Assembly: GCA_017610225.1 (NCBI GenBank)
Contig: JAFCCM010000039.1
Coordinates: 1 to 18,149, forward strand
DNA from: Candidatus Aenigmatarchaeota archaeon
Lineage (GTDB): Archaea; Aenigmatarchaeota; Aenigmatarchaeia; CG10238-14
Length of the DNA: 18,149 nucleotides
Reading direction: 5' to 3'
Shown here: positions 2,601 through 18,149 of the stretch, in pieces
How positions within the stretch are numbered: position 1 is the first letter of the stretch
Layout of the letters: each line of letters begins with the position of its first letter
Position numbers and translations under genes: made by a program
Notes under the pieces: model-generated
Database searches by the model: none
Told to the model about the DNA's origin: nothing
The model's input: the letters and a program-made list of their open reading frames with translations, nothing else

Positions 2601-2924
2601 ATGACTTTTAAAGAACTAAAAAATAAAATAAAAAAAGAACAAAAAGAAAGAGCATCCTCAATTAGGATACTTAAAGCAGCAAGAAAACCTCACGTTTATA
2701 ATTCAAATCCAGCATTATATAATAAGATTGGAGATCTAGATAGTCTTAGATATAACTACAGACATGTTCATATTGCTTATTGTATGTATTTTAATAATAC
2801 AGAATATGGTGATATTGAAAAAGAATGTAGAGAGAGTCCATACACTGGAAAGATTGATGGATATATAAAAGAATGGTCATATATTGTGGAGGCAAGCAAA
2901 GATGAAACTTTACATACTAGTTAG
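2601..2924 (+). CDS. Conserved phage protein of unknown function (107 aa)
   Basis: A TAGGAGAA site precedes the ATG by 8 nt, downstream of an extended -10 promoter. The product is soluble, with a basic coiled N-terminus (residues 1-30, Lys/Glu-rich). Its centre pattern, Arg-Tyr-x-Tyr-Arg-His-x-His-Ile-Ala-Tyr-Cys, I recognise as recurring in uncharacterised phage proteins, but no biochemical role is known to me. It ends in TAG (2922-2924) and overlaps the PTH2-like start (2902) by 23 nt. Two codons beyond the TAG is a TGA, so amber readthrough would scarcely change it. Confidence 0.8.
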   Translation: MTFKELKNKIKKEQKERASSIRILKAARKPHVYNSNPALYNKIGDLDSLRYNYRHVHIAYCMYFNNTEYGDIEKECRESPYTGKIDGYIKEWSYIVEASKDETLHTS

Positions 2925-3189
2925 AAATGATTTGACGCCTTCACAAACAGCTGTTCAAGCAGGACACGCAGTTGCGGAGTATCTAATAAATGATCCATAG
3001 ACTTGGAAAAATAGTACCTTAATTTATTTAGGAATTAATAATCTAATGGTTATGGAGAAGTGGATGTATAAACTTGATTCTCTTGGAGTTAATTATACAA
3101 TTTGGAGAGAACCTGATATTAATAATGAAGTGACAGCAATAGCTACAACTGGTTCAAGTGAATACTTTAAAAAACTGAACCTGTTATAA
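2902..3189 (+). CDS. Peptidyl-tRNA hydrolase 2-like protein with in-frame amber codon
   Basis: A GGAGG site (2888-2892) precedes ATG 2902. The 96-codon frame reads MKLYILVRNDLTPSQTAVQ, then AGHAVAEYL. This is the N-terminal strand and QAGHA helix of the PTH2-related family, which hydrolyses peptidyl-tRNA to release trapped tRNA. Codon 33 is TAG (2998-3000). After it the same frame continues with TWKNSTLIYLG, a Trp-rich middle and a C-terminal 'EVTAIATTGSSEYFKKLNLL' typical of the fold, ending in TAA. The TAG falls in a variable loop (DP-x-TW). The only obvious lesion is this single amber, and no frameshift is seen. A CUA-anticodon tRNA starts 2 nt after the stop. It is either a readthrough gene made full-length by that tRNA, or a nonsense-mutated gene. 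If readthrough fails, only a 32-residue fragment is made. Confidence 0.8.
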
Positions 3190-3191
3190 AT

Positions 3192-3267
3192 GCCAGTTTA
3201 GCTCAGTTGGTTAGAGCGGAGAACTCTAAATTCTTGTGGACGGGTTCGATTCCTGTAACTGGCACCA
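3192..3267 (+). tRNA. Amber-suppressor-type tRNA, anticodon CUA
   Basis: The cloverleaf is complete. Acceptor gccagtt (3192-3198) / aactggc (3257-3263), fully paired. D stem gctc (3201-3204) / gagc (3214-3217). Anticodon stem gagaa (3219-3223) / ttctt (3231-3235) with one G-T pair. The loop is CTCTAAA with T33 present, so the anticodon at 3226-3228 is CTA, which reads UAG. T arm acggg/ttcgatt/cctgt; discriminator A; encoded CCA (3265-3267). Nothing suggests decay. The amino acid it carries cannot be read from the sequence with confidence; phages with reassigned UAG usually insert Gln, but this tRNA lacks an obvious tRNA-Gln body. It lies 2 nt after the amber-containing PTH2-like gene. Confidence 0.9.
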
Positions 3268-3290: not shown

Positions 3291-3785
3291 ATGTACTATA
3301 CAATTTATAAAACTACTAATAAAGTTAATGGAAAATTTTATATTGGTTGTCATAAAATAAACAATCTTCAGGATAGTTATATTGGATCTGGAGATCTTAT
3401 AATTAAAGCTATTAAGAAATATGGAAAAGAGAAATTTAAAAAAGAAATAATGCATCTTTTTAATTCATCTGAACAAATGTATGATATGGAAAGATTACTT
3501 GTTAATGAAAGCTTTATTAAAAGAGAAGATACTTATAACGTTCGAATTGGTGGAACAGGTGGAAGAATAAGAGTAGATTTAGAATATAATAAAAACATAT
3601 CTAAAGGCTTAAAAAAATATTATAAAACTCATTTTAATGTATTTAAAGGTCAACACTATAGTGAGGAAACAAAAGAAAAAATAGGACAAAAAATTGCTTT
3701 TTATCAAAACGGAAAAAATAATTCTCAATATGGAACAATATGGATAACTAATGGAGTTGAAAATAAAAAGATAAAAAAAATATGA
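3291..3785 (+). CDS. GIY-YIG homing endonuclease (Seg-like), C-terminal tail frameshifted
   Basis: A GGAG site precedes ATG 3291, 24 nt after tRNA(CUA). An upstream in-frame reading begins inside the tRNA and is rejected. The 164-residue product has the GIY-YIG core in its first 90 residues: YTIY at 3-6, FYIG at 16-19, then the usual 'AIKKYGKEKF' helix. A NUMOD3-type DNA-binding motif (HYSEETKEKIG) lies near residues 117-127, and the C-terminal 'IWITNGVENKKIKK' box follows. Homing enzymes of this class usually end with Ile-Pro-x-Gly-Phe-x-x-Gly-Arg. Here exactly that (DLIPQGFYRGRKI) is present one frame over, up to a TAA at 3823-3825, beyond an A8 run (3773-3780). Removing one A restores it. 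Free-standing and next to tRNA genes, a common site for such elements. Confidence 0.88.
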   Translation: MYYTIYKTTNKVNGKFYIGCHKINNLQDSYIGSGDLIIKAIKKYGKEKFKKEIMHLFNSSEQMYDMERLLVNESFIKREDTYNVRIGGTGGRIRVDLEYNKNISKGLKKYYKTHFNVFKGQHYSEETKEKIGQKIAFYQNGKNNSQYGTIWITNGVENKKIKKI

Positions 3786-5283: not shown

Positions 5284-6029
5284 ATGATTAAACTTTGTGA
5301 TTATGGTTGTGGGCAAGAGGCTACTTACCAATTTAAGAATGGTAAATGGTGTTGTTCTAAATATCATACACAATGTCCGTCAGTAAGAAAGAAAAATTCT
5401 CAAAATAATATTGGTTGGAAACCAAGTAAAGAATCAAAATTGAAAAATTCTATTTCTAATAAAGGATAAAAAAGATCTAAAAAAGCTAAATTAGCTATGA
5501 GATTATCAATCAATGAAATAAAAAAGAAATATCCTATTTTCTTTAAAATTGAAGAAATGAAATATGATGATAAATTAGATATACAAGTACATTGTAAAAA
5601 TCATAAATGTAAAAATTCTAAAGAAAAAGTGGTTGGTTTACTCCAAATAAAGGTTTATTTTTTGATAGAGTTTATTCAATAGAAAGATCTGTTGGTTATG
5701 GAGAATCAAATTTTTATTGTTGTAATAAATGTAAAAATGAATGTCCATTATTTAATAGAAGAAGTGATAATAAAAAACTAAATATAAAAAATTATACAGA
5801 TTCTGAATATCATATATGGAGAAATGAAGTATTAAAACGAGCTGATTATTTATGTGAATACTGTGAAGAACCTGCAATAGATGTTCATCATTCACGTCCA
5901 CAGAAATTAGAACCAGGTTTTGTTTTAGATCCTGATTTTGGAATAGCTTGTTGTGAAAAGTGTCATTATAAATACGGACATAAAGATGAATGTTCAACAG
6001 GACAATTAGCGAATAAGGAGTGTATTTAA
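5284..6029 (+). pseudogene. HNH homing endonuclease, inactivated copy 1
   Basis: Homologous along its whole length to the intact copy at 13066-13875. The N-terminal Cys-rich finger (CDYGCGQEATYQFKNGKWCC) is intact. An in-frame TAA (5467-5469) then stops it after 61 residues. The same frame resumes (SKKAKLAMRLSINEIKKKYP) up to 'CKNSKEK', where one base is missing near 5624-5632 (GTGG where the paralogues have GGTGG). The rest, 'WFTPNKG' through the HNH core (CEYC, HHSRPQK, CCEKCH) to the TAA at 6027-6029, is in the shifted frame. Two independent lesions make a true pseudogene likely, although the frameshift alone could be a sequencing error. The ribosome binding site of the next gene lies in its last codons. 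Confidence 0.85.
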
Positions 6030-6030
6030 T

Positions 6031-7002
6031 ATGTCAAGGTTAATTTATGTACCCCAATACCCAACGGAACTTCGATATCAAAGCTGGTGGCTTCCCGAGT
6101 TTACTAAAGAATTTAAGAAACATTATGATGAAGTGGTAGTTTTAGGGTTTGATTGGTTATGGAAAAATCATCATGATGGTAATTATGATAATGCAATGTT
6201 TTCACCAATTAAAAAAGCTATTGAATTTGAAACTGCTCAAATGAATGATTATATGTCTATTGATATACGTGATGATGATACTCTATTTCTAGCAGATATA
6301 TCATTTTTAGGACTCTTCTGTAATGTCTTATATCATAAACAATGTCCAAAAATGTTCGCGTTTTGTCACGCCACAAGCTTAAATGCTTATGATTATTTTG
6401 CACCTATGCGTAAGTATAAAAAGAAAATTGAATTAGAACATGCGAAATTATTTGATGGAATTTTCTTTGGAAGTTATTATAGTGTTATTAAAACTAAATG
6501 GAGTCAAAAAGGAATTAATTGTCATGTTGTTGCTCTTCCAGATTCTCCTGATAGTATACTCAAACCAATTAAACCAAGTAATATCAGACCAATTGATTTA
6601 GTATCTGTATGTAGATCCTCTATTCAAAAAGTAAATAAAAAACTTGAGAAAAAAGTTGAAAAAGCATTAGGAAAAAAGATATATAGAGAAGAAGTTAATA
6701 CTTGGAATGATTATAATATATTATTAGGCAATTCTAAAGTGCTTATCATATCGACAAAAGAAGATACATATAATTTGACAATTCTTGATGCTATTAAATG
6801 TGGCTGTGTACCATTGGTGCCAAATAAATTATGTTTTCCAGAAATACTTCCAGAGTATTGGAGATATAATGATGCTGATGATTTAATAAATAAATTAAAA
6901 CATATGTTTGAAGATAATCATTTTTTATTACCAGATGTGATTAATAGAGACAAAGTAGATAATTTTTTTAAAAATATTATAAACATAATGAAAAATGAAT
7001 AA
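6031..7002 (+). CDS. Glycosyltransferase, GT-B fold
   Basis: AAGGAG, located within the end of the preceding pseudogene, serves this ATG. The 323-residue protein is soluble. The N-terminal domain opens with 'SWWLPEFTKEFKKHYDEVVVLG', a pattern seen in phage glycosyltransferases. The C-terminal half contains a Rossmann-like nucleotide-sugar site: a VLIISTKEDTYNLTILDAIK stretch, then GCVPLVPNKLCFPE, the Glu-containing segment that in GT4-like enzymes contacts the sugar nucleotide. Acceptor and donor are unknown. In phages such enzymes modify DNA bases, host glycans or virion proteins. The PIG-L deacetylase upstream also acts on sugars, so the two may be linked. It overlaps the following endonuclease start by 8 nt. 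Confidence 0.8.
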   Translation: MSRLIYVPQYPTELRYQSWWLPEFTKEFKKHYDEVVVLGFDWLWKNHHDGNYDNAMFSPIKKAIEFETAQMNDYMSIDIRDDDTLFLADISFLGLFCNVLYHKQCPKMFAFCHATSLNAYDYFAPMRKYKKKIELEHAKLFDGIFFGSYYSVIKTKWSQKGINCHVVALPDSPDSILKPIKPSNIRPIDLVSVCRSSIQKVNKKLEKKVEKALGKKIYREEVNTWNDYNILLGNSKVLIISTKEDTYNLTILDAIKCGCVPLVPNKLCFPEILPEYWRYNDADDLINKLKHMFEDNHFLLPDVINRDKVDNFFKNIINIMKNE

Positions 7003-7679
7003 ACCACATTTTAATAAAGGTCGAAAAATGTCTGAAGAAACTAAAAGAAAAATTAGTCAAACATTAAAACAAAAATATAAAGATTCTGTGTTTAAAAAGA
7101 AACAATTTGATAGAACACCAAAAGGTGAGAATCATGGTATGTATGGTAAAGAAAGTGCTTTTAAAGGCAAACAACATACAGAGGAATCAAAACAAAAATC
7201 TAGAGAATCTCAATTAGGTGAAAAAAGTTGGTGGTATGGTCAAACTCAAAAAGAATCATCGAATATAAAAAGAAGCAAAACTTTAAAAGAAAGATATAAA
7301 AATGAATCTCATTTTAACAAAGGTAAACCTTTATCAAAAGAACATGCTTTAAAAATAAGTATTGCTAATAGTGGAGAAAAAAGCTTGGAATTGGAAAGGT
7401 GAAATTTCTTCACAAGGATATTGTTCATCATGGTTGGATAAAGAATTTAAACAAGATATAAAAGATAGAGATGGTAACAAATGTTTAAATCCAATATGCG
7501 AATCTAAAAATCCAAATGATTTAGTTGGTCATCATATTGATTATGATAAACAAAACTGCAATCCAATAAATATTATAACAGTTTGTAGATCATGTAATCT
7601 AAAAGCAAATTATGAAAGAGATTGGCACCAATCATGGTATGAAGCTATAATATATAATAGATATATAAGGAGAATATAA
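6995..7679 (+). pseudogene. NUMOD3-HNH homing endonuclease split by a frameshift
   Basis: Two adjacent frames together make one homing endonuclease of about 227 residues. The first (6995-7402) is a string of NUMOD3-type DNA-binding repeats: 'KMSEETKRKISQTLK', 'GKQHTEESKQKSRES', 'GKPLSKEHALKIS'. It breaks at an A6 run (7377-7382). Dropping one A gives 'SGEKAWNWKGEISSQGY' and joins the second frame, which holds the HNH nuclease (CLNPIC, LVGHHIDYDK, VCRSCN, then 'ANYERDWHQSWYEAI', typical of the family) and ends in TAA at 7677-7679. The nuclease half has no ribosome binding site of its own that fits. It could be a real inactivating insertion or a homopolymer sequencing error. Confidence 0.85.
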
Positions 7680-9737: not shown

Positions 9738-12700
9738 ATGAAAATAATGCAATCATTTGCAGATTGTTTAGGTTGTAAATTAGTAGGTGCTGAGTCATGT
9801 ATTCTTGATACTAATTCAAGAGGTGATATGTCTAAAGTGGATATAGTATTTGTTGCTGAAAACCCTGGTAAAGATGAGATTAAAGCAGAGAAACCTTTAG
9901 TGGGTAGATCAGGAAAAACTTTTAGAAAATATTTTGATAAGTATATTAAAAAAGAATATAAATGGTTATTAACAAATACGGTATTATGTCTTACATTAGA
10001 TGATAAAGGTAATACAGGTAATCCTGATGATGAAACAATTGATAGATGTAAAGTAAATTGTTTTAATATTATTAAAACTTGTAACCCAAAATTAATAGTA
10101 TTGCTTGGCACTAGTCCAATGAAAGCATTTGGTATTGCTGACAATGGAGTAACCAAAAGACGTGGTCAATTCTTTAAATGGGAAGGGTTTGATGTTCTAT
10201 TAACAATTCATCCAAGTTATGTTAATAGAGATAAAAAAGAAAGAGAACCAATATTTGAAGATGATATAAAAACTGCAGTTGATTTTATTAGTGCTGACGA
10301 GATAGGAAGTTTTGATCTGAAACCTAAAATAGCATTTACTAATACTGATCTAGCTACTGGAACAAAAGGAATACATAGATATAAAATACCAAAAAAGTTT
10401 TACACAGAAGATTATAGATTAGTTGATATACAATACTTAAGTCGTACTGAGAAGGTGTTATATATCTTTAGGGATAAGGATAACAATAAAGTATACCACC
10501 ATGAAAACGACGATTATTACTGTTATCAATCACCTGGTAATATTGAAGCTAGAAAGATTGTTCCTTATGATAAATTAGATATTGTTAAATTAGCTTATAA
10601 AGATAAAATAAAATTAAATAGTGATATAACATATGAAGGTGATTTAAGATTAACCGTTAAACATGCTTTTGATTATTATGCTCAGAGTAAAGGTGAAGCT
10701 AAAAGACTATCATCTAATATTATGTTTTGTGATATTGAGATTGATGTTGGTATTGATAATCAAGCATTTCCTCAACCAAGTGAAGCTTTACATCCAGTTG
10801 ATATGATAACAAGTATATTTCAAAGTCCTAATAAAAAGATTTGTTATATTCTTGATAATGGAACTGAACCAATAAAACAAATTGAAGGGGTTGAATTAAA
10901 AATCTTTAAAAGTGAAAAGAATTTAATTCATTCTTGGATTAGAGATTTTAAAACATATGATCCTGATTTTATGTCTGGTTGGAACTTTATTGGATTTGAT
11001 ATGGAGTATATGTTTAATAGAATGAAGAAGCTTAAAATGGCTACTTCTATAATGTCAAAGTTTAGTGAGTTCTATGTTGATGGTGAAAGGTTCTTATGTA
11101 AGTTGCCTGGTTGTATTGTATTAGATCAAATGCATCTTTATAAAATGTTTACATTTACAAAAATGGAAAACTATAAATTAGACTTTATTGCATTCCATGA
11201 ACTTAAAAGAAAAAAATTAGAGTTACCATCAAAATTTAATAAGATGTATTGGGAACATTTGAATACTCTAATTGAATACAACATAAGAGATACAGAACTT
11301 CTAGAAGATTTGGAAAATAAGCTTGCTCATATTAATTTATTAAATGAGCTAAGAACTATTTGTACTGCTAGTTTTGAGGCATCAACTTCTCCAATGAATC
11401 AAGTTGATTCTATTATAGTTTCTTGGATGAGAGATAAAGGACTTGCTTCTAAGAATGCAGAAAATCGTGCAAAGAAAAAATATCCAGGAGCATTTGTATT
11501 AACTCCAGAACCAGGTATTTATAATACATTAGTCGACTTTGACTTTGCATCACTATATCCATCTTTGATTCGTACATATAATATTGGACTTAACAACTTC
11601 ATAATGAGAACAAAAGATCCCGCAATAGGTTATGACTTAGCTTATGATAGAGATAATATTCCTGATAAAGTTGCAATGATAATGGACCCAATGTTTGAAA
11701 ATAAAGAAGTTACAATGTCAAAGGAAGATCTTTTTAAAGTTATTAAGGATGATAAATTAGTTCATACTATCAATGGTTGTTTTTATAATAATCATAAAGA
11801 TAATGAATCATATTATAGTTTAATTCTAAAGAACCTTCTGGACTCAAGAAAGAATTATAAAAACTTGATGTTCAAAGCTAAGGATGAAAAGAATGAAGAA
11901 TTAAGAGAATTATATTTTACTAAACAATTGGTATATAAGGTTCTAGCGAATACTCTATATGGTGTTATTGCAAATAAGCAATTTAGATTTTTTAATCTTG
12001 CTTGTGCTGCTGCTATTACCCTGTCAGGCCAAGAAGCATTGAAAGCTTCTATTATTGAAGGTGATAATTTTATGGATCATCTTAAAACTAAAAAGGAATT
12101 AGTAAGAGAGCCAGTAACAACTAAAATTGAAATGTTTCATGCTGATCCAGTTAAACCTCCATTTCCTAATAGAGAATTTGATTACATCGTGACAGGAGAC
12201 ACCGATTCAATTTTTTGTTGCTTTGAAGATTTTAAAGAAGATTTAACAACTGAAAAAATCCATGGATACTGCGAAGAAATTCAAGAGTATTTAAATAACG
12301 GAATTATGAGAGAAATAGTTGAAGCTCATAATGTTGAATTTGAGAATTGTCATTTAATATTGAAAAATGAGTTGATTATTTCAAGAGGTTTATTTCTTGC
12401 TAAAAAGAGATATGCAATTAGAGTAACTAACAATGAAGGTGTTGACTGTGATGAAGTTAATTACATGGGTATAGAGGTCAAACGTAGCGACTTTCCAAGT
12501 TATTCTAAGGTGTTTTTAAAAGAGTTACTTGATCTAGTTCTAAAATCTGAAAAAGTAAGTTATCCTAAATTGATGAAATTTGTACATAGTCGAGAAGCTC
12601 ATTTTAGAAAACTTATTAAAGACGGAGATAAAACTGTAGGTCGCCCAGTTTCTTTTGGTAAAGAGTTGAAGCATTATAAACTAATTCCTCAAGGTGTAAG

Positions 12701-13010
12701 AGCTATGCTGGCATTTAATGATATCTCATATACAGCTCATTACCATGGCTCAAGGGGATATATGTTTAGAGTTAGGGGCATCGACTACGACAAAGCACCA
12801 AAAGAAGTTATTGATAATTATGAAAAGAACTTTATTGCTAAAGGAAAAAAGCTTGAAGTAGTTGCTATCCCAGATGAAGAAGATAAACTTCCTGAATATT
12901 ATCTACTTGATGTTAAGGGAAATCTTGACTTTGCTTACACAGCTAGATATAAATTGATGTTAGATCCATTAATGAAAGTCCAGCAGGCACAAAAGATATT
13001 AACGATATGA
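9738..13010 (+). CDS. Uracil-DNA glycosylase-like domain fused to family B DNA polymerase
   Basis: 1090 residues; AAAGGAA precedes the ATG. Residues 1-185 look like a family 4 UDG. Fe-S ligands C10, C13, C84 (NTVLC) and C104 are present; AENPGKDEIKAEKPLVGRSG at 40-59 is motif 1; 'LIVLLGTSP' precedes the HPSY motif at 158-161. Residues about 325 onward are a family B polymerase. Exo I is CDIEID (D332, E334), Exo II NFIGFD (416-421) and Exo III YNIRD (514-518), so proofreading is intact. Motif A is DFASLYPS (602-609), motif B KVLANTLYG (734-742) and motif C TGDTDS (819-824). T4 gp43 is about 900 residues, so the extra length is the N-terminal domain. A fused UDG could sense or remove template uracil at the fork. 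This is surely the phage replicase. Confidence 0.97.
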   Translation: MKIMQSFADCLGCKLVGAESCILDTNSRGDMSKVDIVFVAENPGKDEIKAEKPLVGRSGKTFRKYFDKYIKKEYKWLLTNTVLCLTLDDKGNTGNPDDETIDRCKVNCFNIIKTCNPKLIVLLGTSPMKAFGIADNGVTKRRGQFFKWEGFDVLLTIHPSYVNRDKKEREPIFEDDIKTAVDFISADEIGSFDLKPKIAFTNTDLATGTKGIHRYKIPKKFYTEDYRLVDIQYLSRTEKVLYIFRDKDNNKVYHHENDDYYCYQSPGNIEARKIVPYDKLDIVKLAYKDKIKLNSDITYEGDLRLTVKHAFDYYAQSKGEAKRLSSNIMFCDIEIDVGIDNQAFPQPSEALHPVDMITSIFQSPNKKICYILDNGTEPIKQIEGVELKIFKSEKNLIHSWIRDFKTYDPDFMSGWNFIGFDMEYMFNRMKKLKMATSIMSKFSEFYVDGERFLCKLPGCIVLDQMHLYKMFTFTKMENYKLDFIAFHELKRKKLELPSKFNKMYWEHLNTLIEYNIRDTELLEDLENKLAHINLLNELRTICTASFEASTSPMNQVDSIIVSWMRDKGLASKNAENRAKKKYPGAFVLTPEPGIYNTLVDFDFASLYPSLIRTYNIGLNNFIMRTKDPAIGYDLAYDRDNIPDKVAMIMDPMFENKEVTMSKEDLFKVIKDDKLVHTINGCFYNNHKDNESYYSLILKNLLDSRKNYKNLMFKAKDEKNEELRELYFTKQLVYKVLANTLYGVIANKQFRFFNLACAAAITLSGQEALKASIIEGDNFMDHLKTKKELVREPVTTKIEMFHADPVKPPFPNREFDYIVTGDTDSIFCCFEDFKEDLTTEKIHGYCEEIQEYLNNGIMREIVEAHNVEFENCHLILKNELIISRGLFLAKKRYAIRVTNNEGVDCDEVNYMGIEVKRSDFPSYSKVFLKELLDLVLKSEKVSYPKLMKFVHSREAHFRKLIKDGDKTVGRPVSFGKELKHYKLIPQGVRAMLAFNDISYTAHYHGSRGYMFRVRGIDYDKAPKEVIDNYEKNFIAKGKKLEVVAIPDEEDKLPEYYLLDVKGNLDFAYTARYKLMLDPLMKVQQAQKILTI

Positions 13011-13065: not shown

Positions 13066-13875
13066 ATGATATGTGACTATGGTTGTGGTCAAGAAGCTAA
13101 ATATCAATTTAAAAATGGTAAGTGGTGTTGTAGTAAAAATTGTTCACAATGTAAAAAAATAAAAAATAAAATGAGTATTACTAGGAAAGGCAAACAATCA
13201 TTTAGAAAAGGTAAAATTAAAGTTTTTTCTAAAGAAAGTAAAAAGAAAATGAGTAATTCTCATAAAGGTAGTTTAAATTGGTTAGGGAAAAAACACAAAA
13301 AAGAAACAAAAACTAAAATAAGTAATTCAAAAAAATTAACAATTATTCAAATAAAAGAAAGATATCCAACATTCTTTAAAATTGAAGAAATAAGATATAA
13401 TCCTAATAATTTAAATGAAATTCAAGCTCATTGTAAGAATCATAATTGTAAAAATTCAAAAGAACAAGGTGGGTGGTTTACTCTAATAAAAACACAATTA
13501 TATGAAAGAATAAGACAATTAGAAAAAGATTATGGTAATGGTGGTTCATATTTTTATTGTTCAGAAGAATGTAAAAATGAATGTCCTCTATTTAACATAC
13601 ATTCTGACCCAAATAAAGAAATACAAGATTTATATACATCAGAAGAATATCAAACTTTTAGACAACAGGTTCTTAAAAGAGAAGATTATCTTTGTGAGTA
13701 TTGTGAAAATAAAGCTACACATGTACATCATTCTCGTCCTCAGAAATTAGAACCAGGTTTTATACTTGATCCTGATTTTGGAGTAGCTTGTTGTGAAAGT
13801 TGTCATTATAAATATGGTCATAAAACCGGTACGGAATGTAGTACTGGACAATTAGCAAATAAATTATGTAATTAA
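13066..13875 (+). CDS. HNH homing endonuclease, intact copy 2
   Basis: GAGGG precedes the ATG, 55 nt after the polymerase gene. The 269-residue protein has a Cys-rich finger (C3, C7, C21, C22, C29) and Lys-rich NUMOD3-like repeats (KESKKKMSNSHKG, KKETKTKISNSKK). A middle domain carries HCKNHNCKN, GGWFT and YFYCSEECKNECP. The C-terminal HNH nuclease has C210 and C213 (CEYC), H221/H222, and C243/C246/H247, ending in 'CSTGQLANK'. Homing endonucleases cut alleles lacking the insertion so that the gene spreads. The same family occurs as a broken copy at 5284 and a third copy at 17337. A 65-bp stretch (13669-13733) is identical to 18084-18148. Location next to the polymerase gene is typical, since such elements often sit by essential genes. 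Confidence 0.93.
   Translation: MICDYGCGQEAKYQFKNGKWCCSKNCSQCKKIKNKMSITRKGKQSFRKGKIKVFSKESKKKMSNSHKGSLNWLGKKHKKETKTKISNSKKLTIIQIKERYPTFFKIEEIRYNPNNLNEIQAHCKNHNCKNSKEQGGWFTLIKTQLYERIRQLEKDYGNGGSYFYCSEECKNECPLFNIHSDPNKEIQDLYTSEEYQTFRQQVLKREDYLCEYCENKATHVHHSRPQKLEPGFILDPDFGVACCESCHYKYGHKTGTECSTGQLANKLCN
13669..13733 (+). repeat. 65-bp perfect direct repeat with 18084-18148
   Basis: Positions 13669-13733 and 18084-18148 are identical over 65 bp, while flanking parts of the two endonuclease genes are clearly diverged. The stretch encodes the first HNH zinc-ligand pair and catalytic His region (VLKREDYLCEYC onward). The second copy may extend only to the window edge; its base 18149 (A) already differs from 13734 (T). 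Confidence 0.95.
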
Positions 13876-16508: not shown

Positions 16509-17335
16509 AACACGAATTTATTGAGGCAAATACTTTAGAAGATGCATGGTTTTTAACCTTGTATAGAATGATTGATGAAGGACAAGTGCATAAAATTTCA
16601 AGAGGCTCATTTGCCGGACAGAAAAGACTTGAGTTTGATTATGTAACTATACAAATTAAAAACCCTGGTAAAGGTAATTTAATTCCTAAAATTCCAGAAT
16701 CATATAATATTGATAATCCAGTTGCTGATGGTTATTGTGAAGAATATAGTCAACAATATTTAATGGGACATGAATTAGCTGATAATGAAAGTTATACTTA
16801 TGGTCAAAGAATAACTAAATATCCTATTACAGATCCAATAAAATTCTTTCATAGGACTGGACACGAAAATATTGTAATAAAAGATATACCAGAATTGATA
16901 AACCAAGGTATTATTTTGAAAGAAAAAAGTAATGATCATGATGAGCATTTTAATTATTTTATTAACCAGATTGAATTAATCAATTGGTTATATAATAATA
17001 AAGGTCATAGAAATAATCAAACAGTTCTTCAAATTGCACATCCGACAGATATGTTATTACAAGACCCACCATGCTTAAGACAAATACAATGTCGTGTTCA
17101 AAATGGTAAATTACACTTTTTTGTATATTTTCGCAGTTGGGATCTCTGGAACGGTTTTAGCGCAAACCTTTGTGGGATTGAAATCTTAAAACAATATATG
17201 TCAACTATGATTGGTGTAAAAAATGGAGAAATTATTGCTACATCTGGTGGACTTCATGTATATGATTATGCCTTTTCATTAGCTAAAGTATTGCGTATGA
17301 GAAATGACATTGAATTAAAAATTGGATCAAATTAA
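16505..17335 (+). CDS. Divergent thymidylate synthase (ThyA superfamily)
   Basis: The GTG start at 16505 is supported by AAGGAG 5-10 nt upstream and the GTGA overlap. 276 residues. The C-terminal half carries the ThyA active site in order: DPPC with catalytic C190; RSWDLWNGFSANL (R210, S211, D213 and N221, aligning residue for residue with the dUMP-binding segment of E. coli ThyA); and HVY (H251, Y253) after 'GEIIATSGGL'. The retained Asn favours dUMP over dCMP, so thymidylate synthesis rather than dCMP hydroxymethylation is predicted. The N-terminal 150 residues are unlike standard ThyA and the usual N-terminal folate segments are not obvious. It may be a phage-specific subclass. Confidence 0.85.
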   Translation: MKHEFIEANTLEDAWFLTLYRMIDEGQVHKISRGSFAGQKRLEFDYVTIQIKNPGKGNLIPKIPESYNIDNPVADGYCEEYSQQYLMGHELADNESYTYGQRITKYPITDPIKFFHRTGHENIVIKDIPELINQGIILKEKSNDHDEHFNYFINQIELINWLYNNKGHRNNQTVLQIAHPTDMLLQDPPCLRQIQCRVQNGKLHFFVYFRSWDLWNGFSANLCGIEILKQYMSTMIGVKNGEIIATSGGLHVYDYAFSLAKVLRMRNDIELKIGSN

Positions 17336-17336
17336 A

Positions 17337-18149
17337 ATGCCAATTTGTGATTATGGTTGTGGACAAGAAGCTACCAATCAATTTAAAAATGGTAAATGGT
17401 GTTGTTCAAAACATCCTAAAAAATGCCAAAAATCTAGAGAAAAATTTAGTAATTTTTTAAAAGGTAAATCATCTGGAATGAAGGATAAAAAACATTCAGA
17501 AGAAACTAAAAAGAAAATGTCTGAATCACATATTGGTTTAAATATATGGACAAAAGGAACCAACCATTCAGAAGAAACTAAAAAGAAAATGTCTGGTAAT
17601 ATTCCTTGGAATAAAGGAAAAGTTGGAGTTTATTCTAATGAAACTATTGATAAAATAAAAAAAGCTCGTTTAAAACAAAAACCTACAATGTTTAATAAAA
17701 AACATTCTAGGAAATCTCGAAAAAGAATGAGTATATCACATAGACCAACTATTAAACAAATACAAAAAAAATATCCAATATTTGCTAAAGTTGAAGAAAT
17801 GAGATATGAACCTGAAAAAGAAAATGAAAAAATAATACAAGTTCATTGTAAAAATCATCTATGTTCAAATTCAAAAGAACAAGGTGGTTGGTTTACTCCA
17901 AATCGAGATCATATATTTTATCGAGCAAGATCAATTGAAAAAGAAAATGGCAATGATGCAGCTTATTTTTATTGTTCCCAAAAATGTAAAGACATATGTC
18001 CATTATTCAATTTAATAGTAGATCCAAATAAAAAAAGTAGTGAATTATATACTCCATCTGAATATAATATTTGGAGAGAAGAAGTTCTTAAAAGAGAAGA
18101 TTATCTTTGTGAGTATTGTGAAAATAAAGCTACACATGTACATCATTCA
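17337..18149 (+). CDS. HNH homing endonuclease, copy 3, 3' end outside window
   Basis: The ATG follows the thymidylate synthase stop by one base, and the frame stays open for 271 codons to the window edge. Same order as the copy at 13066: Cys-rich finger (CDYGCGQEATNQFKNGKWCC), two near-perfect NUMOD3 repeats sharing SEETKKKMS at about residues 59-67 and 80-88, the HCKNH/GGWFTPN/YFYCSQKC middle domain, and the start of the HNH core (CEYCENKATHVHHS). The last residues and the C-terminal zinc ligands lie beyond the window. It looks intact so far. Its insertion behind thymidylate synthase parallels the polymerase-linked copy. Confidence 0.92.
   Translation, partial: MPICDYGCGQEATNQFKNGKWCCSKHPKKCQKSREKFSNFLKGKSSGMKDKKHSEETKKKMSESHIGLNIWTKGTNHSEETKKKMSGNIPWNKGKVGVYSNETIDKIKKARLKQKPTMFNKKHSRKSRKRMSISHRPTIKQIQKKYPIFAKVEEMRYEPEKENEKIIQVHCKNHLCSNSKEQGGWFTPNRDHIFYRARSIEKENGNDAAYFYCSQKCKDICPLFNLIVDPNKKSSELYTPSEYNIWREEVLKREDYLCEYCENKATHVHHS

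Follow-up and report, generated by a model that had tools for sequence, protein, structure and literature searches.

A PTH2-like gene with an in-frame stop codon and a linked suppressor tRNA: a putative stop-codon lock in phages

The window analyzed here, an 18,149-nucleotide stretch of DNA, carries a PTH2-like gene with a single in-frame TAG and, on the common strand, a tRNA with the anticodon CUA (Table 1). The frame opens with an ATG, and its product is 95 residues long if the TAG is read and 32 residues long if the TAG terminates. The tRNA starts two bases past the TAA of the gene, and the two probably share one message, as their arrangement suggests. ORF reading, ARAGORN and Pfam confirmed what a sequence-only reading had described at this locus, namely one in-frame TAG in an otherwise clean PTH2-like frame with a CUA tRNA adjacent to it. 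ARAGORN names the tRNA "tRNA-Pyl", a label that derives solely from its anticodon. The window also holds several homing-endonuclease-like genes, two of them with SegE-type GIY-YIG and NUMOD3 matches and one lying directly behind the CUA tRNA, and a DNA polymerase gene.

Table 1. Features of the window (positions counted from its first letter)
Feature	Position	Strand	Basis
Upstream ORF overlapping the PTH2 start; own stop TAG, with TGA two codons further	2601..2924	+	
PTH2-like gene with one in-frame TAG; ATG start at 2902	2902..3189	+	ORF reading, Pfam, AlphaFold2, Foldseek
In-frame TAG at codon 33, followed by A; placed in a loop by the fold prediction	2998..3000	+	
TAA closing the full-length PTH2-like frame	3187..3189	+	
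tRNA, CUA anticodon, loop CUCUAAA, acceptor GCCAGTT/AACTGGC, encoded ACCA end	3192..3267	+	ARAGORN
Homing-endonuclease-like gene	3291..3785		
Homing-endonuclease-like gene; looks broken	5284..5682		
Homing-endonuclease-like gene	6995..7679		
Family B DNA polymerase, N-terminal uracil-DNA-glycosylase-like domain	9738..13010		
Homing-endonuclease-like gene	13066..13875		
Homing-endonuclease-like gene	17322..18149		

The Pfam PTH2 family (PF01981) matched residues 1-79 of the window protein, a span that includes the TAG, with E = 5.7e-5 and 23.7 bits against a cut-off of 23; for this match and for the fold prediction the TAG was taken as a residue. AlphaFold2 predicted a single compact domain (mean pLDDT 95.4), with residue 33 within the loop that leads from helix 1 (residues 13-30) to strand 2 (residues 39-45). 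Among relatives, this loop differs in both length and letters in the alignment. A Foldseek search with the model returned 14 PDB matches with E < 0.001, headed by PTH2 entries (2zv3, 3erj, 1xty), with E = 3.7e-7 to 2zv3. Gln19, His22, Glu70 and Thr78 are invariant in 37 aligned phage PTH2 sequences. The Lys of 2zv3 (kgKMVAQ), the catalytic residue of archaeal PTH2, aligns with a Gln position in the phage profile and is mostly Gln or Tyr in the 37 sequences; within the 2zv3 alignment and these sequences, the catalytic Lys of the archaeal enzymes was not found in phage PTH2. Judged by alignment and predicted fold, the window protein, like the phage proteins, is a divergent PTH2-fold protein, for which we claim no enzymatic activity.

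A single TAG could reflect a pseudogene or a sequencing error, and the nearest relative (L003/G001, whose PTH2 is 71% identical) does have Lys at that position. An alignment of homologues at this codon, which the sequence-only reading had proposed, nevertheless placed a TAG at the same column in L005 and inside the same loop in L015, L028 and L035, which argues against a read error. The frame is intact on both sides of the TAG, and many PTH2 genes elsewhere, in other contigs as well as in named isolates, contain in-frame stops. We therefore consider error or decay highly improbable. The Lys in L003/G001 also indicates that the window TAG is not fixed in the clade, and in G001 the tRNA adjoins PTH2 even though Lys stands instead of TAG. 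The stop is optional in the window's own subclade, where most PTH2 genes have no in-frame TAG.

We examined the start of PTH2 in a wider set of 146 loci, which is partly redundant (114 clusters at 80% identity, 63 at 60%) and retains repeats such as L034/L332, L037/L385, L133/L311 and L149/L309. Dropped before the counts were the duplicates L303, L304, L307, L320, L330, L331, L386, L400, L403, L410 and L290, the near-copies L022 and L033 (of L021 and L032), L152 (whose PTH2 is that of L302), L157 (weak match) and the loci in which the anchor motif was absent (L371, L345, L351, L355 and L411), L345, L351 and L355 of these having an early TAG. RaK2, Phabba, Cane17 and L506-L523 were added later and stand outside the 146. 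L071, L075, L104, L133 and L149 entered by the tRNA pattern; apart from L104, each has its contig or its PTH2 in common with a locus retrieved by PTH2 alone. Reading upstream from the conserved core, we met TAG first in 77 of the 146 loci, TAA in 2 (L387, L388), TGA in 2 (L329, L367) and a start codon in 65, and the commonest form of early stop was ATG-NNN-TAG. A wider reading, which admitted only ATG as a rival start and added four fused genes, gave an early TAG in 88 loci, TAA in 2, TGA in 2 (L306, L329), an inner TAG in 7 and no in-frame stop in 44; a stop without a preceding start remained in three further cases (2 TAG, 1 TGA), and L367 has its TGA with neither a preceding ATG nor a suppressor. 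L306 is locked, that is, closed by an early stop, only when the GTG right behind its TGA is disregarded, and L387 (TAA) has a frameshift in the last third of the gene.

The early stop (n = 92) falls at codon 3 in 49 loci, codon 4 in 18, codon 5 in 10, codon 2 in 8 and later in 7, so that most locked relatives have it at codon 2-6, compared with codon 33 in the window. The lock is not universal, since 44 of the 146 PTH2 genes have no in-frame stop; a CUA tRNA is nonetheless present at 33 of those 44. The base after the early stop is a purine (A or G) in 92/92 loci, which are related and hence not 92 independent trials, against a purine background of 63.4% at codon 4 of 1792 genes and 63-71% at codons 3 to 8. 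A purine after the stop favours suppression.

A further set of PTH2 loci came from scanning IMG/VR viral contigs by protein alone. ARAGORN found a CUA tRNA in 23 of these 27 loci and none in L017, L026, L027 and L029; in many of the 23, the tRNA begins <30 bases from the PTH2 stop. A reverse test gathered 120 loci through a T-arm pattern, 32 of them with an ARAGORN CUA tRNA, and PTH2 was present in 9 of the 32, on the same strand in all nine (two of the reverse-test loci, L101 and L114, lie on contigs that the set already contained). PTH2 thus usually has a CUA tRNA, and a CUA tRNA often lies without PTH2 in the flanking DNA examined. Wherever a locus had CUA (114/114), at least one CUA tRNA was on the PTH2 strand. 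At loci with at least three tRNAs, CUA was the tRNA nearest to PTH2 in 52 of 66 (expected 13.0; 0 of 200,000 simulations as high). The tRNA lies 0-40 bases downstream of PTH2 in just 3 of 73 early-stop loci; it is directly behind PTH2 in 21 of 41 loci without an early stop. Going by this gene order, there are two coupling arrangements, and the window is in the group with the tRNA directly behind, plus an inner TAG. PTH2 of RaK2 is unlocked, and its 10.3 kb piece yielded no CUA tRNA (one case). A whole-record pattern search confirmed CUA in none of the records of the unlocked loci L017, L026, L029, L361 and L399, nor in that of L367.

The CUA tRNAs have a common anticodon loop, mostly CUCUAAA, and differ in acceptor stems and discriminators. 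A single amino acid for the suppressor was set aside as a candidate: the non-suppressor tRNAs nearest to them span 16 isotypes, with Met 22, Arg 21, Trp 18 and Lys 10 besides 12 others, and the discriminators vary. Among other translation-related genes, ARAGORN reported tmRNA genes at L006:12054-12404 and L016:8356-8751, in loci with the PTH2/CUA pair. An RF-1 (GGQ) domain occurs in 10 of 26 records (G001, G010, G011, G013, G015, G018, G020, W01, W04, W06), nine of them with an open frame of 118-222 aa and the Lak record with one of 383 aa, and most of these look like stand-alone rescue-type factors.

Early stop and anticodon vary jointly. Early-TAG loci have a CUA tRNA in 73 cases and no suppressor in the examined flank in 15, while both early-TAA loci (L387, L388) have a UUA tRNA and both early-TGA loci (L306, L329) a UCA tRNA. 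No mismatched suppressor was present among the early-stop loci of the 146-locus set, and the chance of a full match on random re-pairing of the 77 pairs is about 1e-7, kinship ignored. Clustering at 80% identity (n = 114) leaves 59 early TAG (50 with CUA), 2 TAA and 2 TGA. L329, with its TGA and two UCA tRNAs, lies within one protein family whose 15 other loci show TAG with CUA in 11, TAG with no suppressor in the examined DNA in 4, and no mismatch. Several contigs of this family repeat contigs of the 146, and one of the four, L515, matches partially from residue 15 on, has TAG followed by T, and is no test of an early stop.

For the 15 early-TAG loci lacking a nearby CUA tRNA, a whole-record pattern search with ARAGORN located CUA in another part of 5 records (CM1, XacN1, LR756511 and the L313 and L398 records); the same two methods found none for the other 10, several of which are short contigs. 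LR756504 and LR745206 (>600 kb each, early TAG) gave no CUA by whole-record pattern search, nor by ARAGORN, which was run on stretches of 98 kb and 49 kb in addition to the PTH2 and pattern loci. The sequence-only reading had held that a PTH2 broken without its tRNA would speak against a paired module, and these two large records, with an early TAG and no CUA found by those searches, may be such cases. Its broader claim, that gene and suppressor tRNA form a self-contained module, gains support from the comparison, both through their linkage and through the joint shift of stop and anticodon.

An early stop near an ATG might also have nothing to do with suppression. It could close a very short leader reading frame of the minigene kind (for example ATG-AAA-TAG), after which PTH2 re-initiates at an unusual codon, often ATT, the tRNA not being required. 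In keeping with this, 45 of 92 loci have ATT, ATA or ATC, all rare start codons, right behind the stop, and Mycobacterium phages have a GTG behind the TAG at good Shine-Dalgarno (SD) spacing. Re-initiation, however, leaves the pairing of TAA with UUA and of TGA with UCA unexplained, and it is inapplicable to the window, where the TAG at codon 33 is inside the domain. Only 27 of 71 loci have an SD 4-mer between -16 and -3 relative to the early-stop ATG, compared with 15.6% of random ATGs, and 43 of 71 have no SD within 22 bases of the ATG, a scarcity that weighs against the lock. Of the 28 SDs present in that range, 25 are spaced (3-12 bases) for the ATG preceding the stop, again contrary to re-initiation. 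We regard this explanation as unlikely. The Mycobacterium phages ArcherS7, Phabba and Cane17 (L300, L504, L505) read start-TAG-GTG, with a CUA tRNA 129-306 bases downstream, and because the SD spacing favours the GTG after the TAG, their PTH2 is probably an unlocked remnant; ArcherS7 is included among the early-TAG counts.

Nine named, cultured phages carry an early TAG in PTH2: Serratia BF and Erwinia pEa_SNUABM_19 (ATG-ACG-CAC-TAG), CBB and GAP32 (ATG-GCA-CAA-TAG), Kaldavass and XbC2 (ATG-GCT-CAC-TAG), Arash (ATG-CTG-TAG), ME3 (ATG-ACT-TAG) and pT24 (ATG-AAA-TAG). In the deposited annotation the gene is absent from BF and pEa_SNUABM_19, and in the other seven it starts past the stop, inside the conserved region. 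For 8 of the 9 phages the annotation lists a suppressor tRNA no more than a few kb away; in Arash, a tRNA called CUA by ARAGORN is entered as tRNA-Phe. In XacN1 and CM1, ATG-AAG-TAG heads a longer ORF whose end is PTH2, and an in-frame ATG about six codons past the TAG is the annotated start in XacN1. A far stronger PTH2 family match (E about 1e-28 or lower) lies away from the locked copy in 7 of 20 records searched (G021, G022, G024, W02, W03, W05, W13), which makes the locked copy a second, divergent PTH2 in those records.

Several further loci differ in form. In XacN1, CM1 and pT24, PTH2 is fused to an HD-like domain that matches Pfam weakly or not at all, and the HD-type hydrolase gene at L302:6480 (also L152:885), whose frame overlaps the PTH2 end, has an in-frame TAG near codon 53. 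In L030 and L031 (Lak-B4 and Lak-C1), from Lak phages that recode TAG, a UUA tRNA lies about 0.6-0.7 kb upstream of a PTH2 without an early stop. Atu_ph07, reported to have a UCA tRNA and two PTHs (PMC6102473), gave no match.

We next considered whether TAG is recoded throughout these genomes. TAG ends 4 of the 27 called genes of the window, 9-23% of genes in 14 large relatives and 448 of 2958 called genes (about 15%) in 15 contigs. Whole-genome reassignment (code 15) was rejected on this basis, TAG being an ordinary stop in the window and its relatives. The sequence-only reading had stated that other window genes stop at TAG and had favored selective suppression over reassignment; the first statement holds, and the comparison supports the second. 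Code-15 phages (Lak, crAss-like) likewise combine a phage suppressor tRNA with in-frame TAG, as in a 12 kb piece of Lak-B4, where 5 of 13 called genes contain 41 in-frame TAGs between them. In the present phages, by contrast, about 15% of genes terminate at TAG, the in-frame stop is confined essentially to one gene, and there are UAA and UGA counterparts. A timing role for suppressor tRNAs in such phages was reportedly proposed by Borges et al. in 2022.

A homology screen was then applied to in-frame TAGs. On the sense strand, those with homologues in at least five other contigs fell in PTH2 (window, L005, G011, G012, L035) and in one HD-type gene adjoining PTH2 (L152). Five minus-strand rows of the same screen (L024, L025, L104; at least five contigs) were taken as antisense shadows. 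In the 15 contigs no supported TAG appeared outside PTH2, bar rows read as antisense or out of frame without a row-by-row check, including those with two to four contigs. The denominator was 407 genes and 120,441 codons with homologues in at least two other contigs, with at least five for only 63 genes, and the screen favours PTH2, most loci having been chosen for it. A hunt for start-proximal locked genes in 12 contig sets passed 5 TAG, 2 TAA and 0 TGA candidates. Two of the TAG candidates are PTH2 (GAP32, G005), and in two of the other three an in-frame Met, some 13 and 27 codons downstream, is likely an ordinary start. The hunt is not sensitive, because it missed the PTH2 of ME3, XacN1 and G023.

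These screens bear on the possibility that the TAG in PTH2 is neutral, the suppressor existing for another reason and the co-transcribed PTH2 merely tolerating the codon. The window subclade, where the TAG of PTH2 comes and goes and many tRNA-bearing relatives have none, would suit such an account. Against it stand the 15-contig screen, the concentration of early stops at codon 3, and the purine that invariably follows them. Neutrality accordingly has a small probability in our estimate.

We propose instead that the stop codon very probably locks the PTH2-like gene, with a suppressor tRNA of the phage as its dedicated key; this degree of confidence covers the lock alone and not the use of PTH2. 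What the sequence itself shows is the stop and its cognate tRNA, the linkage of the two, their change in step and the purine context; from these we infer the readthrough. A release factor would end translation at the sense-position stop and leave a short peptide, whereas the cognate suppressor tRNA, usually near and on the same strand, would read the stop and yield full-length PTH2. The level of PTH2 would then report the suppressor's success against the release factor.

Partial parallels exist in known systems. In the autoregulation of prfB (RF2), an early in-frame stop makes the level of the protein depend on termination. The likeness is an early in-frame stop in a translation-factor gene, and the difference is that prfB uses +1 frameshifting and senses its own factor, whereas here a suppressor tRNA would read the stop. 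Pyrrolysine decoding relies on a CUA tRNA dedicated to the UAG codons of a small number of genes; the phage system would share the dedicated CUA tRNA and the few genes, but acceptor stems and discriminator bases vary by phage, so that no single amino acid is implied. bldA (PMC2000904) is the UUA-reading tRNA of Streptomyces, one dedicated tRNA that governs chosen genes via a codon that little else reads. It differs in being chromosomal and developmental and in acting on a sense codon, in place of a stop codon contested by a release factor. A bldA-like gating of PTH2 would have comparative support in the agreement of codon and anticodon. An engineered feed-forward loop (PMC7969014), in which, according to its title, dependence of a gene on a suppressor tRNA removes leaky expression, is synthetic; the phage lock, if true, would be a natural, widespread counterpart.

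As to use, the PTH2-like protein may relieve a cost of suppression, either dropped-off peptidyl-tRNA or excess charged suppressor, in a feedback resembling that of prfB for RF2. This is a tentative guess, taken from the family name and the shape of the circuit alone, and the replacement of the archaeal Lys weighs against it. A fuller and equally doubtful version would have a natural, widespread lock built with any one of the three stops and a co-evolving suppressor tRNA as its only key, in which the ATG-NNN-stop leader is a minigene that sheds peptidyl-tRNA when termination is slow. The phage would thereby sense release-factor competition and answer with a peptidyl-tRNA hydrolase, forming a self-setting feedback loop that is sometimes extended to an HD-type hydrolase, either fused or as the next gene with a TAG. 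The minigene-sensing part is suggested by the PTH2-like nature of what is locked and by the prevalence of ATG-NNN-stop as the seal.

A jumbo-phage review (PMC7824862) treats PTH2 as a ribosome-rescue enzyme, and its text does not contain the word "suppressor". In the open-licence literature, screened by title and the start of the abstract, no description was found of a PTH2 with an in-frame stop matched to a suppressor tRNA. If true, the lock would account for missed or truncated annotations in known jumbo phages, and the matched pair of stop and anticodon across three stop codons would constitute a natural translational switch.
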